From positions 1 to 64,000 of the forward strand of contig CACHZY010000004.1 of the NCBI GenBank assembly GCA_902584445.1: 64,000 nt of DNA. Reading direction: 5' to 3'. This stretch comes from an uncultured Bacteroidota bacterium (GTDB lineage Bacteria > Bacteroidota > Bacteroidia > Flavobacteriales > Flavobacteriaceae). Position numbers and translations under genes: made by a program. This document shows, one piece after another, positions 50,427 to 50,585 of the stretch. Under the pieces are notes generated by a model. The model was not told the origin of the DNA. It saw nothing but the letters and a program-made list of their open reading frames with translations, and ran no database searches. Numbering within the stretch: the first letter of the stretch is position 1; each line of letters starts with the position of its first letter.

Positions 50427-50585
50427 ATGAAAACTAACGACTTAATTTTTGATAGATCTTTTGTTAATGTTAAATGGTCTAACCAAAAAAAACATCTTTT
50501 GGAGGGGTTAAGTTTTCTGGCCTTGGCAGAGAGGGATCTAAATATGGGATTGAAGACTATCTATAAATAAAGTATATGTGTTGTA
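50427..50585 (+). pseudogene. collapsed succinate-semialdehyde dehydrogenase remnant
   Basis: Two ends of a GabD-type aldehyde dehydrogenase joined by a large internal loss. The first part (50427 on, frame 3) reads MKTNDLIFDRSFVNVKWSNQ, like the GabD opening (SFxNGKW). The second part (50492 on, frame 2) reads [20 protein letters not shown], the GabD C-terminal signature, then DYL, an in-frame TAA where relatives have Glu, then IKYMC. The roughly 430 residues in between, with the catalytic Cys, are absent. Reading from the first ATG gives a 47-residue chance ORF that is out of frame with the second part. Confidence 0.82.

Follow-up and report, generated by a model that had tools for sequence, protein, structure and literature searches.

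The window (64,000 nucleotides, the whole stretch of DNA that was analysed) is part of contig C4 of a draft genome of 1.70 Mb (70 contigs, 69% complete). The first gene of a forward-strand cassette (47909-49279) encodes a membrane transporter that matches structure 7tak ('Putative membrane protein PurT') at E 2.7e-105, and Pfam MFS_MOT1 only below cut-off. It is followed by an intact zinc-type alcohol dehydrogenase of 375 residues (ADH; 49291-50418, forward strand), with PF08240 and PF00107 above cut-off and no NCBIfam cut-off passed (best TIGR03989, 324.6 against 440). A thioesterase of the 4HBT family (TE; 145 residues; 50609-51046, forward strand), likewise intact, matches PF13279 and PF03061 above cut-off. 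Between ADH and TE, at 50427-50599 on the same strand, lie the two ends of a gabD-type succinate-semialdehyde dehydrogenase (SSADH) in different frames. The initial annotation had described such a broken gabD at this place, and the first 20 and last 33 codons were indeed recovered there; its range, 50427-50585, was right at the start and too short at the end.

The 5' remnant (50427-50486) was aligned with three intact orthologues and holds the first 20 codons with the original start; it reads MKTNDLIFDRSFVNVKWSNQ, against MKTNDLIFDRSFVNGKWTNQ in the intact SSADH of the related genome G007. The 3' remnant (50493-50599) holds the last 33 codons and the original stop (50597-50599) in the other frame, and was placed by orthologue alignment and by a piece of PF00171. 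In a whole-genome scan this piece was found at C4:50471-50575 (E 7.7e-5, 21.6 bits, family cut-off 23), with the C-terminal part covering profile positions 425-460 of 461. The window copy thus has no full-length aldehyde dehydrogenase domain, its PF00171 part being below cut-off, and the N-terminal piece (50427-50486) gave no Pfam match in a scan of the 47-residue open reading frame. The ends are joined by a run of eight A (50485-50492), within which neither side of the junction is cleanly assignable and for which the sequence of the relatives offers no explanation.

About 1.27 kb is gone at the junction. The intact G007 gene has 1443 bases and the remnant 173, a net loss of 1270 bases or about 423 codons, so the estimate of about 430 deleted codons made earlier was right to within a few. 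The loss is not a multiple of three, and the frame was therefore shifted. A stop had also been said to replace a conserved Glu; it stands in the former SSADH frame at 50564-50566, a position taken by Glu in G007 and G005 and by Asp in G013. Over 52 codons (20th codon, junction bases 50487-50497 and final stop omitted), 143 of 156 bases are identical to G007. Deletion through microhomology was considered and rejected, as the two breakpoint regions compared in G007 share no exact word of at least 5 bases.

The cassette genes were looked for in 22 uncultured Flavobacteriaceae/Bacteroidetes genomes of the same genus, many of them incomplete. An intact SSADH of 480 residues, with the ADH orthologue directly upstream and the TE orthologue directly downstream, was present in G007 (isolate AG-325-E04, nearest of the three to the remnant), G005 (CAJWGK010000020.1) and G013 (Flavobacteriaceae bacterium MED769). 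Relatives do carry gabD here, and its absence from all of them would have counted against the initial annotation. The G007 protein matches the GabD-type NADP+ SSADH structure 3jz4 at E 9.3e-179 and stays under the stricter equivalog NF008415 (664.8, cut-off 828). It passes TIGR01780 (669.0 bits, cut-off 646.35). Of the window copy about 53 of 480 codons are left, and with the bulk of the enzyme missing it cannot be active.

ADH is 94% identical to its G007 orthologue over residues 52-375 (the G007 contig ends inside ADH), 85% to that of G005 and 78% to that of G013; for TE the values are 89%, 71% and 59%. Transporter orthologues lie upstream of ADH in G005 and G013, as in the window. The order permease, alcohol dehydrogenase, aldehyde dehydrogenase, thioesterase, proposed initially from the window, is therefore seen whole in intact relatives. 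G007 shares the downstream HATPase, STAS and cyclase genes with the window, and G005 shares the BI-1-like gene and two more upstream genes; in G013 the cassette is apart from the BI-1-like gene, on another contig. These names (BI-1, HATPase, STAS, cyclase and, below, PP2C) were presumed on reading the neighbouring proteins, and the BI-1-like protein had no NCBIfam match. ADH (78% or more) turned up in 4 of the 22 genomes, TE in 4, the transporter in 3 and SSADH (71% or more) in 5, the remnant not counted.

Relocation of SSADH within the genome was tried as an explanation and set aside. Three further PF00171 genes are present in addition to the remnant, and none reached a listed NCBIfam cut-off over the matched parts scanned; their strongest NCBIfam match was to MdlD-type benzaldehyde dehydrogenase, and one had none at E <= 1e-40. 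A second close SSADH was not found in the draft, in which two PF00171 genes matched the G007 SSADH at 31% and 26% (E <= 1e-20); as the draft is 69% complete, the part it lacks could still contain an intact copy. In viral contigs, a search for relatives gave only two matches, at 33% and 32%.

G005 and G013 served as outgroups for placing the differences between the window and G007 in the 52 remnant codons on one branch or the other. The window branch carries 6 nonsynonymous changes (stop counted) and 0 synonymous, the G007 branch 0 nonsynonymous and 2 synonymous; 0 nonsynonymous and 5 synonymous changes were undecided. The split of 6 against 0 gives a one-sided binomial p of 0.016. In one further codon G007 has His and both outgroups Gln, while the window has yet another base, different from both; for that reason the codon was not charged to G007, and charging it gives 6 against 1 (p 0.06). 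In the neighbouring genes, nonsynonymous changes on the window and G007 branches were 7 and 6 in ADH (6 undecided left out), 13 and 12 in the cyclase gene (6 left out), 7 and 3 in TE (8 left out), 0 and 0 in the HATPase gene (1 left out) and 1 and 0 in the STAS gene (0 undecided).

On the window branch the remnant changed at 6 of 126 nonsynonymous sites, a higher rate than the 21 of 2913 for the pooled ADH, cyclase, HATPase and STAS genes (Fisher p 0.00065). The excess held against ADH alone (p 0.006), with TE added to the four genes (p 0.0013) and without counting the stop (p 0.0037); against TE alone the difference was not significant (p 0.10). The six changes are near the neutral expectation of 8.5-9.8. 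What remains of SSADH thus appears to evolve without constraint, on small numbers (six changes).

These changes bear on whether the gap belongs to the cell or to the assembly. An assembly error, as the initial annotation had allowed, or a whole-genome-amplification chimera could have dropped 1.27 kb from a gene that is intact in the living cell. The draft is incomplete and in 70 contigs, a homopolymer lies on the junction, and the closest relative, AG-325-E04, bears a name presumably in the style of single-cell genomes, in which amplification chimeras occur. The ends of a living gene, however, stay constrained, and those of the remnant hold six nonsynonymous window-branch changes, the stop among them, with none assignable to G007; nor is there a direct repeat of at least 5 bases at the G007 breakpoints that would collapse. 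An artefact is therefore very unlikely, and this odd gap in an operon is indicated to be real rather than a draft-genome error.

Because the remnant has decayed, the deletion most likely arose well before sequencing and after the split from G007, in this lineage specifically; some doubt attaches to this, as the changes are few, the evidence is assembly sequence only and the deletion was seen in one genome. Pairwise dS from G007 in five neighbouring genes is 0.12-0.17 (median about 0.17), so a loss after that split is recent on the scale of the genus, as had been suggested, and the word does not extend beyond it.

The stretch is thus, with high confidence, a pseudogene. Comparison with the relatives shows that a real deletion, internal to the gene and specific to this lineage, took out about 1.27 kb and so nearly the whole ancestral SSADH between ADH and TE, and that both ends have since decayed without constraint. 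An ordinary replication or repair slip would account for the deletion. Deletion pseudogenes are familiar in bacterial genomes, and the window case, which is like them in its kept ends, lost middle, shifted frame, gained stop and intact orthologues at the same site, is nothing unusual beside them: it is an ordinary deletion pseudogene and adds one more example to a well-known class. The 47-residue reading frame across the junction (50427-50570) keeps the old start codon and could be read as a new small protein born of the fusion. Its second half is out of the former frame, it has no Pfam family match and the rate of base change in it is close to neutral, which makes such a protein extremely improbable.

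The pseudogene reading leaves ADH and TE intact. ADH has a pairwise dN/dS of 0.156 against G007, which clearly points to constraint. ADH and TE are probably still expressed together. Oxidation of the alcohol substrate by the cassette most likely continues, and the aldehyde or semialdehyde product is presumably handled by another enzyme or route.

The history of the site within the genus was read from a tree of the BI-1-like gene (14 genomes, midpoint root; G007 left out because its contig ends before the gene). The window pairs with G006 (97/94), and G005 joins these two next (93/87, slightly below the program's mark for firm support). G005 has the cassette at the site; in G006 the cassette is absent and the HATPase gene comes directly after the BI-1-like gene. 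Since the tree places G006 with the window and next to the cassette-bearing G005, G006 probably lost the whole cassette and the window lineage SSADH only, as judged from this single gene tree. Intact, broken and empty sites occur in one genus, a modest and clean example of how marine flavobacteria with small genomes lose a catabolic cassette step by step. In G004, SSADH adjoins the BI-1-like gene directly, with no ADH, transporter or TE alongside. The same adjacency was seen in G019 (locus L048, 3185-5525), where the BI-1-like and SSADH frames are both broken; these double breaks may be assembly base errors instead of two pseudogenes.

The state of G006 also bears on the fate of the remaining genes. 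SSADH may have been only the first part of the cassette to decay, with ADH, TE and the transporter next, a course compatible with the deletion pseudogene and tentatively entertained here. In addition to the empty site, no match to ADH, TE or the transporter was found in the G006 genome (82% complete), and of the dN/dS values measured against G007 that of TE is the highest (0.30), TE also having more nonsynonymous changes on the window branch than on the G007 branch (7 against 3). That excess is not significant, however (p 0.17), ADH shows none (7 against 6), and the reading frames of transporter, ADH and TE are all open.

The cassette was followed beyond the genus in a scan of named genomes, in which the best 80 of 166 ADH relatives were examined, three of them being G005, G007 and G013 again. 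Among these best 80 of 166, an SSADH of at least 48% identity lies directly downstream of ADH in 30 loci, two of which are cut by contig ends. The Bacteroidota loci (L067-L096) have it there in 24 of 30, the others being L069, L074, L082, L083, L094 and L095. In 8 of the 80 a TE-like gene touches ADH and no SSADH separates the two (L069, L074, L107, L108, L123, L141, L143 and L146). L069 (a Lutibacter-labelled MAG) and L074 (Muriicola sp. Z0-33) have the order and strand of the window, with TE following ADH at once, ADH at 79% and 78% and TE at 51% and 52%. In these two loci ADH and TE nearly abut and no piece of SSADH was detected between them (tblastn, E <= 1e-5), whereas in the window the remnant is visible; no close SSADH was found elsewhere in their genomes, the best being 34% and 29% (E <= 1e-40).

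An ADH tree of 36 rows combined the window with 35 loci that the analyst selected from the 80. L069 and L074 fall with L068 (100/97) and L095 with L084 and L092 (100/100), all three partners being SSADH-bearing, and L094 lies inside an otherwise SSADH-bearing group (100/99). From these positions SSADH has come or gone several times beside ADH, and the ADH tree does not separate gain from loss: the SSADH-adjacent label changes 8 times, against a shuffled mean of 8.1. More speculatively, and with less than even confidence, ADH and TE could form the functional core, with SSADH as a middle module that can be detached and is dropped again and again in flavobacteria; each removal would alter the end product of the pathway, and the window would have caught one of them midway.

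As to the chemistry, the families of TE, ADH and SSADH fit a 4-hydroxybutyrate/succinate-semialdehyde pathway. In a scheme drawn from the protein families and from the neighbours in L068, L069 and L107, TE would release a hydroxy acid from the CoA ester, ADH would oxidise this acid to the semialdehyde and SSADH would oxidise the semialdehyde to a diacid, for example succinate. Where SSADH is lacking, the final step would have to run otherwise or be skipped. ADH/TE pairs adjoin beta-oxidation-type genes in all three loci, a possible clue to the substrate. Genes for a short-chain dehydrogenase and a MaoC protein precede ADH and TE in each of them. In L068 genes for an enoyl-CoA hydratase and two acyl-CoA dehydrogenases also stand ahead of the cassette, and in L107 a thiolase gene comes after TE and ADH.

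The pathway had been suggested at the outset to have lost a step. This is plausible and only partly right: because ADH is constrained and ADH-TE pairs occur in L069 and L074, the genes that are left are not necessarily relics of a pathway that has died, and with ADH and TE intact the rest of it may still work. A literature search found no paper on the SSADH, 4-hydroxybutyrate and thioesterase combination and none on PurT; among the papers listed on pseudogenes of flavobacterial single-cell genomes, where a Roseobacter study came up, and on amplification chimeras, none contributed to the present reading. The conserved ADH-SSADH-TE cassette is worth a biochemical look.

Two further features of the window were noted beside the cassette. 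Downstream (51112-57189) the HATPase, STAS and cyclase genes are grouped with an opposite-strand gene for a long protein with a PP2C-type phosphatase end; this cluster resembles a partner-switching signalling module and has the same order in G006 and G007. Upstream (45995-47038, forward strand), a protein presumed to be transglutaminase-like, with no NCBIfam match, ends in eight glutamines (NLEMIQQQQQQQQ). The tail was found in 5 of 6 loci examined, the sixth, that of G011, giving none: eight glutamines also end the matching proteins of G005, G006 and G001, and G013 has five and an unreadable codon. A conserved polyglutamine end on a protein of this predicted kind looks unusual.
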